A stretch of 64,000 bases of DNA, taken from an uncultured Draconibacterium sp. (lineage in GTDB: Bacteria; Bacteroidota; Bacteroidia; Bacteroidales; Prolixibacteraceae). Below the pieces are notes generated by a model. The model was given only the letters and a program-made list of their open reading frames with translations, was not told the origin of the DNA and searched no databases. The number at the start of each line of letters is the position of its first letter. Position 1 is the first letter of the stretch. The DNA is taken from assembly GCF_913060805.1 (NCBI RefSeq), contig NZ_CAJXTC010000022.1:27476-91475 (forward strand), in the 5' to 3' direction. Positions 18,563 to 24,373 of this stretch are shown piece after piece. Both the position numbers and the translations under genes were made by a program.

Positions 18563-19096
18563 CTACTGCTCAATCTCCCTGACCAGATCAAGAATCTTAT
18601 CGCGCAAGGGTTTGTATTTGAAATACCAGATCACAAGCCCAATTATCACTCCAAAGAGTATTGCCCCGAGAAAAAAGACCTGCGAATCGAGCACCGATTT
18701 GCCTTCCCTAATCCAGTCGAAAGTTAATCCCACATCCATTAATAGAAGGCCCGGAATAATCCACACTCCCCTTTTCTGAAATGGCTGGTAACGATAGGTG
18801 GCTTTTTTCAGCATTTCGAGTGTGGGCAACGAATAATCAACATACTGGTAGTCCTTATAATATTTACGAAAAGTGAGCGCAATGATCAGAAATCCCAATA
18901 TAAGCGCAACACCGCCAATTAAATCGTTAATGCTCTGCGAATCGGAGTATTGTCGGGCAGTTTTTACAATAAACACAGGTATAAAAATCCAGTAAAATAT
19001 CTGAATTGCTTTTACAATTGTGGCATACTGTCTGTCTTCCTTTTTCAGTTTCCCGGTTAATTTACTCAGGTTGGTATCGAATTCGTGTGCGGTCAT
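18563..19096 (-). CDS. membrane protein, putative anti-sigma partner of the adjacent ECF sigma factor
   Basis: 177 aa with several hydrophobic segments; start overlaps the sigma-factor stop by 4 bp. Confidence 0.7.
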   Translation of the reverse strand: MTAHEFDTNLSKLTGKLKKEDRQYATIVKAIQIFYWIFIPVFIVKTARQYSDSQSINDLIGGVALILGFLIIALTFRKYYKDYQYVDYSLPTLEMLKKATYRYQPFQKRGVWIIPGLLLMDVGLTFDWIREGKSVLDSQVFFLGAILFGVIIGLVIWYFKYKPLRDKILDLVREIEQ

Positions 19097-19605
19097 AATT
19101 GTTCTCCTTTCAGCTTTTCTTTTAATTGCGATTTAATACGATGAATCTTCACCTTTACATTGGCCTCGGTAATACCAATAACCTCGGCAATCTCTTTCAT
19201 CGACAGCCCTTCGAGCATCAACGAGATCAATGCTTTATCGATTACCGACAGCTGATTTAGCTCAAGTTGCATTCGATCAAACAGCTTTTCCTCAGCCAGT
19301 TTTTGTTTCAGGTTTTCATCATCCAATATCGAATTCAGGTTTGTTGTGTCGCTGTTTACCATCAGTTTCATGTGTCTGAAAGCCTTTCCGGTAAATGTTA
19401 ATGACGTATTTACAGCCACCCGGTACACCCAGGTACTCATGGCCGAATCGCCCCTGAAACTGTCGAGACTTTTCCAGATATTTACCAGCACTTCCTGGTA
19501 CATATCTTTCTGGTCTTCGACGTTAGAATTGTAGTACCTGCAAATGTTGCGGATCCGCTCGCCATTGTCAGATACAATCGTTTTAAATTTCTCTTCTTTC
19601 GTCAC
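19093..19605 (-). CDS. ECF-type RNA polymerase sigma factor
   Basis: 170 aa; region 2 (RNICRYYNSNVEDQKDMYQEVLVNIWKSLDSFRGDSAMSTWVYRVAVN) and region 4 (SMKEIAEVIGITEANVKVKIHRIKSQLKEKL). Confidence 0.95.
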   Translation of the reverse strand: MTKEEKFKTIVSDNGERIRNICRYYNSNVEDQKDMYQEVLVNIWKSLDSFRGDSAMSTWVYRVAVNTSLTFTGKAFRHMKLMVNSDTTNLNSILDDENLKQKLAEEKLFDRMQLELNQLSVIDKALISLMLEGLSMKEIAEVIGITEANVKVKIHRIKSQLKEKLKGEQL

Positions 19606-19950: not shown

Positions 19951-20565
19951 CTATTTCTCCTTTCCGCCTTTAACAAGCAACCAAACCGTAAACGCCATTT
20001 CACCAAAAATACTTGGTACAGCAACCAGAGCAAGAAATATTCCGGCAAATTCGGCATAGTTGGGCAAAAGGAAATGTGCAGCAGTATCAACCATATACAT
20101 TACACCTGCAGCGGTTAGAAATGCTGCGATCCACTTTGGTTTTTTAATAATATTGGAGAGTAAAATTAAGTGTGCGCCAAAAAAGAATAAACCAATCAGC
20201 CAGATAATTTCAAATACATTTACCTGGTACAAAATCTCATCTGCCGAATCCAGATTCAAAATAAGAACCAAAGCAAAAACAGCAACTCCCATTATTGCAG
20301 CATGCATTAATCGAAAATATGTACTTAATCGTGTAAGCTTATTTTTCCGGTATAACCCAAAAAGTCCCCACGCAACAACTACATCGAACAGTACGGTGAT
20401 TAAAAAAGCTAAAATGCCAAACCGCACAGACATATGATTGAGTCTGATCGTTCCGAGCGGATTTTGCTTGATCGACTCAAGCATAACAAAATTGGCAAAA
20501 ATGGCCGCAAAAAATATGATCAGGTAGCTAATTCCGGTAATGATCGAGAGTTTTCTTTTATCCAT
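19951..20565 (-). CDS. DUF4386-like multi-pass membrane protein
   Basis: 204 aa; RKLSIITGISYLIIFFAAIFANF ... RLMHAAIMGVAVFAL ... GAHLILLSNIIKKP. Confidence 0.8.
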   Translation of the reverse strand: MDKRKLSIITGISYLIIFFAAIFANFVMLESIKQNPLGTIRLNHMSVRFGILAFLITVLFDVVVAWGLFGLYRKNKLTRLSTYFRLMHAAIMGVAVFALVLILNLDSADEILYQVNVFEIIWLIGLFFFGAHLILLSNIIKKPKWIAAFLTAAGVMYMVDTAAHFLLPNYAEFAGIFLALVAVPSIFGEMAFTVWLLVKGGKEK

Positions 20566-20650
20566 ATCAATTGTTTGTTCCGCAAACGGAGTTTAAATAC
20601 GGAATAATAACCACAACCGTCTGTCAAATGTTTACAAGCAGCCATAAAAA

Positions 20651-20682
20651 AAGGTTCCGTTCGTATCAACAAACGGAACCTT
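20651..20682 (-). terminator. terminator downstream of the 1157-aa gene
   Basis: On the minus strand AAGGTTCCGTTT-GTTGATACG-AACGGAACCTT followed by TTTTT. Confidence 0.8.
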
Positions 20683-20709
20683 CTATATTTTGTACAGAGA
20701 ATCTATCTC

Positions 20710-23700
20710 CTACTTACACAGCGGATCAACCCCAATTGTGCCAACCAACTCTTTTAGATATTGTTTCGATTCAACGTTTTTCAAACGTTCTTTTGCCAGT
20801 GCCAAACGGCCATTGATATCCATTTCGGCAACCAACGCAGCATTGTTTTCGTTGTCAATAAAATCCTCCAGATAACCAATCTGCTCCACAAGGAAAGCAA
20901 TATCCTTTTCTTGCTTCAGTTTCAGGCGGGCTTTATACCAGTCGCTTTTTAGCACCTCTTCCCTGTCGAAAAGTTTACGCAGCTCCGGATCGCTGATATC
21001 CTTGCCTTCGTAATGGCCGTAAGCCATAACATGCAGCAGCACTTTCAGCGGCGGAATGGCAGATTCAACACTTCCATCCTCGAAAAATGGTTGAGCAGCG
21101 CGCTGCATGGCTTCTGTAATATTATTTATACCATCAACATAATCATCCATGTTTTGCAGTTCCGGCTTCAGCATGCGCTCGTTAAACACTGCCAGCGGCT
21201 CATCAAATAAGCGGTTCATACAACGGAACGCAAAGTTTTTGGTTATTCGGTAGCCCAAACGGCTGGCCAGTACTTTTTGTCCTTTGTATTCAAAGTCCTC
21301 CAGTTTTTCCAAACAGCCATTTTCAATCAGCTTCTTCGGATCGCGATCTTCAGGAACCAAACGTGCCCAAATTTCAGGAATAAGAATACTGATATCGTGG
21401 TCGAAACGGTTTTCCGACCCAATGTATCCGGCAGCCGAACTAAATCCCTGGTATTCTGTCAGAATGTACGACAGCAAGGCATTATTCAAATCGGTAGTTG
21501 GCACCAACATGTTAAAAGGCCCTTTGGTAAGCGCACCTTCCAGTCCGGCACCGGTTGTTGATGGAGACTTTCCGGTGATACTTGCCACAAAATCCATGAA
21601 CAACTCAGGTAACTCCTGATAGTGAATTGGATTGTAAACCGCTAATGGGCGAATTCCGGCTTCTTTGTCGGCAGGATTGTTTCTTCGTCCGGGCAGGACG
21701 GCATTTACAGGCCAAACCACTGGATCTTTGTCTTTTATCTTGCGGAACAAACGCACACCAATTTCTCCGAGGTATGAGTCTTGTGTTTCGTCCTTAAATA
21801 TATTGCACTGCAGGTAACGCGGGTTCTTTGTTGGCTCACCGTCAACAATACGTGGATGCGACGGTGTAACAAAGTAATTATCGCTATCGCCTTCAGCCAC
21901 TTCCTTAATAAAGTTTTTTACCGGCTTGGTATATTTCTCAAAGCTAATGGCGTCTTCAATCAGTTCAACTGCATTCTCGCGCGTTAACGGCTCGTAATTC
22001 GTCAGGAATGTGTTATTGTCCACAATTTCCTTTTCAGCTTCTTTATCGTAGCCTCTGATTACGGCTTCATCAGGGCGTTGGAACAGGTAACTTTCGCAGT
22101 TAGCAACCAGTTTTACACTCGGATTATCGTACTCCCTATTCAGATCCTTCAGGCGATTTGACGGAACTGTAATCGTAGCCGAAATATCATCCTCTGTTTG
22201 GATTTTCATCGACGGAACAAAATCCGAACGTAGTTTATGCAAATACCAACGTCCTTCTTCGTTAAATCCAATACGCACATAACTTGCAGCAATCGGGTTG
22301 TGTTTGTAGCGCAACACATTTCCGGGGCGGCCATTTACAATTTCAACATTGAATAACTCGCGCCATTTCAATCCTTTTTCTTCGTTGCCACGGTAGTGAC
22401 GTTTTACGAAAAAGGCCAGTGTGCGAACATTGTCTGGCAGGTCTTTCAGGAATTTATTATACTCGTCGCTGTATTGATCCGACGGTGTTAACAATTTTAC
22501 AGCCGAACCTAAAGTACGTTCTTTACTCAGGAATGAACGTGACGGATCAGCATCGGGACGCACTTCTTTCCATCGGTCAGAATAATCTTTATTAATGATT
22601 TCATCCACCATATTCTCCACCAACTCCAGGTTTTCGATGTAGAAAGACCCGAATTTAATGGCGTTTTGCATCGATTTTGAGATCTCTGATTTTCCACCAC
22701 CGGAAACGGTACTTGGTTTATGGCAGAACATTCCTTCCGGAGCCGTGTCGATAATACGCCACATAGCTTGTGTTGGGTGTTTTACCAACTGAAATTTATG
22801 TCCGGTAGGATGAACGTATACTTTGTTTGGCGAAAGTTTCAGGCTGTAATCTTTGTTTTTGTATTTCCAGCTAACCGAACTTTTCTCCACATCAATATCA
22901 GCGTTTTCAGGAATGTAAACTACCTCCGGAAATTTCTTATCGATTGCGTAATTTCCTTCCTGCACCTCAATGCGGTTGCCCAGCAACTTTTTCACTTCAT
23001 CGAAAGAGTACGGCTGGTCGAACTTTTTAGTAAAATTGGTTCCAAAAACGCTGTCGCTCATGTTTCCACGTGGGAAAGCAATGGCGCCACCGGCATGTTC
23101 TTCTTCAACCAAACCAAAAAGGTTAGCCGAATAGCTGATTTGAGTTTTTATCTCTTTTTTGGAATAACCGTAATAATTATCGGCAATAATGGTAACCACT
23201 ACCCCGCGTTCATCGCGACAGGTAAGTTTAAAAGCAGAACCATCATTGTAAAGCTCATTTTCGTCTTTCCAACACATGCCGTCGCGTTTCTGTCGCTCCG
23301 ATGCATCATCGTAATGTGGCAAGCCAACATCTTTCTTTTTGAGTTGAGTTAAGTGTGGTGCCAGAATAATACATCCGGTGTGGCCGGTCCAGTGCTCCAC
23401 ATCCAATGCGGCATCGTTAACAGCCAGGTTCGGATCGCCGGCATTACCAAAAATGGTTTCCACAAAGTCGAGGTTACTAACCAGACTTCCCGGTGCAAAA
23501 AAGCGTACTTCCATACTCTTTTGACTAACAATACCGGGCACTTCAGGACAAACCACAGGGCGCAGCAACAGCGATACCATTACTTTTGCTTTTTCATCCT
23601 GTGCCGATGTAAATGGCAATGTCATTAATTCATCGGTTGGTTTTAAGGCTGCGCTCAACAGATGCGCGAAAGTAATTTTCGGCACTTCTTTTTTGTCGGC

Positions 23701-24183
23701 AGGTACCGGAAGTCCGCCACGTACAATATGGAAAGTTCCTTTTGTTGTTCGCTTATCTTTGGCCGGATTGTTCAGAATACCCTGCTTTAAGCGGTAAGAA
23801 CTTAACAAATCGCTTTTAAACTCGTTGCCATTTGGTGGCAAACTCAGCTCACGCGCCATTTTTTTCTGGTTCAAAACCAACGTATTATTTGGCAAACGAT
23901 AAGGCTTTTTGAATTCCAGCTCTTTTAAATAGTCATCGATAAAATGCTGAATTCGCGCATCGGCTGGAGACATGTGCTCGCTAAGCAAGCGCGATTTCTC
24001 CTGGAAGCTTTTTACCAGACCTTCGGTTAGTTCCTGAAATTTTGAATTGGCGTATTTTGTGCCCGAATCCGAATCGTCATTAAACGTAGGCTGACCTAAG
24101 GAAGCCAACTGCAGGTTAATGTATTGAATCATATCGCGGCGATCTCGTCTCGTCTGTTTTGAGGGAGTGGATTTTTTACTCAT
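20710..24183 (-). CDS. putative PPi-type phosphoenolpyruvate carboxykinase (1157 aa)
   Basis: Very large single-ORF enzyme; STVSGGGKSEISKSM (P-loop-like), EEHAGGAIAFPRGNMSDSVFG, EHWTGHTGCIILAPHLTQL. Assignment rests on remembered family features and was not searched. Confidence 0.58.
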   Translation of the reverse strand: MSKKSTPSKQTRRDRRDMIQYINLQLASLGQPTFNDDSDSGTKYANSKFQELTEGLVKSFQEKSRLLSEHMSPADARIQHFIDDYLKELEFKKPYRLPNNTLVLNQKKMARELSLPPNGNEFKSDLLSSYRLKQGILNNPAKDKRTTKGTFHIVRGGLPVPADKKEVPKITFAHLLSAALKPTDELMTLPFTSAQDEKAKVMVSLLLRPVVCPEVPGIVSQKSMEVRFFAPGSLVSNLDFVETIFGNAGDPNLAVNDAALDVEHWTGHTGCIILAPHLTQLKKKDVGLPHYDDASERQKRDGMCWKDENELYNDGSAFKLTCRDERGVVVTIIADNYYGYSKKEIKTQISYSANLFGLVEEEHAGGAIAFPRGNMSDSVFGTNFTKKFDQPYSFDEVKKLLGNRIEVQEGNYAIDKKFPEVVYIPENADIDVEKSSVSWKYKNKDYSLKLSPNKVYVHPTGHKFQLVKHPTQAMWRIIDTAPEGMFCHKPSTVSGGGKSEISKSMQNAIKFGSFYIENLELVENMVDEIINKDYSDRWKEVRPDADPSRSFLSKERTLGSAVKLLTPSDQYSDEYNKFLKDLPDNVRTLAFFVKRHYRGNEEKGLKWRELFNVEIVNGRPGNVLRYKHNPIAASYVRIGFNEEGRWYLHKLRSDFVPSMKIQTEDDISATITVPSNRLKDLNREYDNPSVKLVANCESYLFQRPDEAVIRGYDKEAEKEIVDNNTFLTNYEPLTRENAVELIEDAISFEKYTKPVKNFIKEVAEGDSDNYFVTPSHPRIVDGEPTKNPRYLQCNIFKDETQDSYLGEIGVRLFRKIKDKDPVVWPVNAVLPGRRNNPADKEAGIRPLAVYNPIHYQELPELFMDFVASITGKSPSTTGAGLEGALTKGPFNMLVPTTDLNNALLSYILTEYQGFSSAAGYIGSENRFDHDISILIPEIWARLVPEDRDPKKLIENGCLEKLEDFEYKGQKVLASRLGYRITKNFAFRCMNRLFDEPLAVFNERMLKPELQNMDDYVDGINNITEAMQRAAQPFFEDGSVESAIPPLKVLLHVMAYGHYEGKDISDPELRKLFDREEVLKSDWYKARLKLKQEKDIAFLVEQIGYLEDFIDNENNAALVAEMDINGRLALAKERLKNVESKQYLKELVGTIGVDPLCK

Positions 24184-24373
24184 AATAATTATATTTCTAG
24201 TCCATAAACAAAAATACAGAATTGAAGTTTTACCAATCTCATGAAATTTCTTAATTAACCATAAAACAGCAATTCTTTATTGTTTTGTTAACCCTAAGGG
24301 GACTTATGGTATCAAAATGTAAATGATTTAGTCTTTCATCCGATATACGTGACTTTCTCGTCAATGTTACCCA

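Follow-up and report, generated by a model that had tools for sequence, protein, structure and literature searches.

PPi-dependent phosphoenolpyruvate carboxykinases (PPi-PEPCKs), or PEP carboxytransphosphorylases, form a family of homodimers (PMC10441589). Two of them have solved structures: the actinobacterial enzyme of P. freudenreichii (8e1u) and the enzyme named AiPEPCK (6k31). According to a 2020 review, most organisms with a PPi-PEPCK have a canonical PEPCK as well, and E. histolytica is named as the exception (PMC8100219). Both the reaction and the structures of the family had been described previously, and the protein reported here is a new, ordinary full-length member of it. Its gene lies in a 64,000-nt stretch of DNA from an uncultured Draconibacterium sp., which we call the window.

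The original prediction placed a single ORF of 1157 aa at 20710-24183, gave no strand, and read its product as a probable PPi-PEPCK. We found the ORF on the minus strand, where it runs unbroken for 1157 codons from an ATG at 24183 to a stop at 20710; the plus-strand reading of the same interval is broken by 27 stops. Its GC content by codon position, 53/34/45%, is consistent with a coding gene, and the three motifs cited in that prediction all occur in the minus-strand ORF. The gene and its associated features are as follows.

20710..24183, minus strand: PPi-dependent phosphoenolpyruvate carboxykinase (EC 4.1.1.38), 1157 aa, an almost certain assignment from sequence matches, invariant residues and AF2/Foldseek
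22675..22710, minus strand: P-loop-like motif TVSGGGKSEISK, residues 492-503, invariant in 32/32 aligned members; coordinates calculated from residue numbers
21529..21576, minus strand: nearly invariant stretch TGKSPSTTGAGLEGAL, residues 870-885, present also in 8e1u and 6k31; a low-confidence loop in the model
20646..20683, minus strand: intrinsic terminator directly 3' of the PPi-PEPCK stop codon (RNAfold, -22.7 kcal/mol, plus T run)
24209..24236, minus strand: possible Bacteroidota-type promoter, TTG-N17-TATTTTTG, by consensus match only

Searched against all PDB chains, the protein gave two significant matches, 8e1u (1099 bits) and 6k31 (1087 bits). Both are full length: residues 5-1128 of 8e1u and 45-1150 of 6k31 align with it end to end, each at more than 1080 bits. 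A profile of 32 family members recovered the same two entries and nothing further up to E = 10. Candidate catalytic residues were judged by their invariance among the 32 members and 8e1u. Over the first 900 aligned columns, 162 positions are invariant among the members, and 152 of these are identical in 8e1u, as are 49 of the 52 charged ones; TVSGGGKSEISK is among the invariant residues that the members and 8e1u have in common. The protein resembles both known enzymes in length, with 45-48% identity to 8e1u over the chain and 45% to 6k31, and contains the two family-conserved stretches SGGGKS (P-loop-like) and TGKSPSTTGAG. It differs from 8e1u in its origin from a member of the Bacteroidota and in short insertions around residues 34-44 and 378-382; its differences from 6k31 amount to ordinary sequence divergence, and the conserved motifs show no visible difference. 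The remark that proteins of this class are easily left as hypothetical was a fair one, as no Pfam or NCBIfam model covers the protein. The one NCBIfam line that it gave, for allophycocyanin (E 0.12), is a chance match.

An AlphaFold2 monomer model built from the 32-member alignment (pLDDT 84.3, pTM 0.83) was compared with known structures by Foldseek, a structure search having been proposed as a check. The ten chains of 8e1u and 6k31 came first, with TMq 0.88-0.93 overall (0.91-0.93 for 8e1u and 0.88-0.89 for 6k31), followed by a series of ATP-PEPCKs at TMt of about 0.55-0.67 and E of about 1e-6 to 5e-4 and, weakly, by one GTP-PEPCK (2zci, E 1e-3). That the PPi enzymes are remotely related to the nucleotide PEPCKs thus shows in the predicted fold; in sequence only the P-loop seems to line up. 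When hhalign was run against the family profile of the genome's own ATP-PEPCK, TVSGGGKSEIS was paired with the ATP-PEPCK P-loop GLSGTGKTTLS, over 15 P-loop columns only and at 4% probability. Even at this low probability, the pairing agrees with the earlier P-loop-like reading of the motif. In the interior of the chain, model confidence is lowest at residues 493-496 and 876-889, which fall in two of the most conserved stretches, the P-loop and TGKSPSTTGAG; this would be expected if, as we infer, these loops become ordered on substrate binding.

The distant fold in common with ATP-PEPCKs, together with the P-loop-like motif, could be taken as the mark of an ATP- or GTP-dependent PEPCK that is long and has diverged. 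However, neither PEPCK_ATP nor any other Pfam model matches the protein, its length and sequence follow the PPi enzymes throughout, and the true ATP-PEPCK of the genome is a separate gene, so that we put the chance of this reading close to nil. Membership in the ATP-PEPCK families (PF01293 / TIGR00224) was likewise rejected, with no Pfam match, no significant NCBIfam match and the hhalign value given above. The genome's ATP-PEPCK (PF01293; L011) has in common with the protein a similar P-loop and, distantly, the core fold (Foldseek E about 1e-6), but it is half as long and uses ATP, and outside the P-loop no sequence homology between the two is detectable.

It could also be asked whether the protein is a family homologue that is no longer a PEPCK, or that has a mainly regulatory or a different phosphotransfer role. 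Because an ATP-PEPCK is encoded in the same genome, this second, canonical enzyme could relax selection on the PPi-PEPCK gene, and its function could drift. The conserved residues argue against such drift, with 152 of the 162 invariant positions retained. Identity is also high in the closest relatives among the matches listed, Draconibacterium orientale (95%) and then Maribellus (85%), both Prolixibacteraceae, and in several relatives a PPi-PEPCK is the sole PEPCK found. By these identities, the window would most likely belong to Draconibacterium or a near relative of it. We regard a change of role as very unlikely. The original prediction had named two findings that would speak against its assignment, a lack of detectable similarity to PPi-PEPCKs and a predicted fold without a PEPCK-like active site, and we observed neither. 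Given full-length similarity to two solved PPi-PEPCKs, TM scores of 0.88-0.93 and the invariant residues, we conclude that the 1157-aa protein is almost certainly a PPi-PEPCK catalysing oxaloacetate + PPi <-> PEP + Pi + CO2, with activity and phosphoryl donor assigned by homology.

The gene had been credited with its own terminator and a promoter region. Directly 3' of the stop codon lies a strong hairpin with a perfect 16-bp stem and a 4-nt loop, followed by a T run, which bears out the terminator; a simple consensus scanner made no call for this element. As for the promoter, a single Bacteroidota-type -7 box, TATTTTTG, is located 33 nt ahead of the ATG, and a TTG lies 17 nt further upstream; by this consensus match it is a plausible candidate. 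A search of the upstream region for known RNA families found none. The next minus-strand gene, which encodes a DUF4386 membrane protein (19951-20565), begins past the terminator, and the upstream neighbour, a gene for a FadL-type outer membrane protein, is divergent; by this layout the PPi-PEPCK gene is monocistronic. The DUF4386 gene adjoins the PPi-PEPCK gene in D. orientale and Maribellus too. Among relatives beyond Draconibacterium and Maribellus the neighbours vary, and no common gene context is seen. Recurrent neighbours in Flavobacteriaceae, which by eye resemble RimM, ribosomal protein S16 and an acyl-CoA dehydrogenase, appear to be ordinary family synteny. Elsewhere in the window, at 18563-19605 on the minus strand, a gene for an ECF-type sigma-70 family sigma factor has directly behind it a gene for a small membrane protein, which may be the cognate anti-sigma factor.

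We examined the metabolic setting by family searches of the window's genome, which is 99.5% complete. These detected an ATP-PEPCK (above the TIGR00224 cut-off), a PEP carboxylase (PEPC), a PPDK (above the TIGR01828 cut-off), a membrane pyrophosphatase (H_PPase) and three PFKs, two of ATP type and one PPi-PFK (above the TIGR02477 cut-off); a GTP-PEPCK was searched for in the same genome and not found. Both genes that were to be looked for as a check, pckA and that for PPi-PFK, are thus present. The PPi-using set of PPi-PFK, PPDK and H_PPase fits the PPi-PEPCK assignment. The suggestion that this bacterium could interconvert oxaloacetate and PEP using PPi instead of a nucleotide holds as far as the enzyme is concerned, but with an ATP-PEPCK also encoded, PPi is an extra option rather than a replacement, and the cell would have a choice of phosphoryl donor.

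In the reaction we propose, metal-bound oxaloacetate would be decarboxylated to the enolate, as in other PEPCKs, and the enolate would then receive a phosphoryl group from the donor at the P-loop, here PPi. Since the genome also encodes PPi-PFK, PPDK and a membrane pyrophosphatase, PPi from biosynthesis or from PPDK could be spent at this step. The reaction would be near equilibrium and could supply gluconeogenesis from C4 acids; alternatively, it could fix CO2 onto PEP for a succinate- or propionate-type fermentation.

PPi-PEPCK relatives are encoded by at least 563 confirmed stretches from GTDB representatives, the best 80 of which belong to Bacteroidota, Pseudomonadota, Spirochaetota, Omnitrophota and Planctomycetota. 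In even samples, a PPi-PEPCK occurred in 10 of 396 genomes of the phylum and in 25 of 295 genomes of the order, one of the latter being a fragment. ATP-PEPCK was above cut-off in 246 of the 295 order-sample genomes (83%), and was distributed unevenly: it was present in 9 of the 24 carriers, defined as genomes whose PPi-PEPCK is complete or almost complete, versus 237 of the 271 other genomes (Fisher p = 1e-7, uncorrected for relatedness). G575, G589 and G673 were scored as lacking it since they do not appear in the list of genomes with a match. A single genus, g205, contains both patterns, with PPi-PEPCK alone in two genomes and ATP-PEPCK alone in one. Thirteen carriers without ATP-PEPCK, twelve from the order and a single one from a different class, all at least 96% complete, were tested for GTP-PEPCK; it was found in 3 of them, and the other 10 have neither enzyme. 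Breznakibacter xylanolyticus would be an example of a PPi-only lineage: genome G424, in which both PF01293 and PF00821 are missing, encodes the identical PPi-PEPCK. Because ATP-PEPCK is rarer in carriers and most of those tested also lack GTP-PEPCK, replacement of the canonical enzymes is suggested. We consider it fairly probable that in several Bacteroidota lineages PPi-PEPCK has wholly replaced the nucleotide PEPCKs, so that the carboxykinase step between oxaloacetate and PEP would have PPi as its only donor. The window's own genome, with PPi-PEPCK and ATP-PEPCK both present, is no such case.

A central-metabolism family that has no Pfam or NCBIfam model and whose bacterial carriers number in the hundreds, with many marine Bacteroidota among them, is likely a blind spot, and PPi-PEPCK can be missed when metabolic models are built. 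For genomes with neither ATP- nor GTP-PEPCK, a model that omits it would wrongly leave oxaloacetate and PEP unconnected by any carboxykinase.

Two PPi-PEPCK lineages occur inside the window's own family, one about 70-95% identical to the window protein and the other about 55%, a pattern that suggests either transfer or an old paralogy followed by loss. They are the G000/G568 lineage and the distant G466/G659 lineage (L028, L029), and G466/G659 have a GTP-PEPCK in place of ATP-PEPCK. The sole plasmid record with a relative is a 632-kb Persicobacter replicon, and with just this one the gene appears to be mostly chromosomal. In a betaproteobacterial record, Rhodoferax sp. U11-2br (L061:1638-5066), the PPi-PEPCK falls within the Flavobacteriaceae clade at 66% identity to the window protein, reflecting either recent transfer or contamination.
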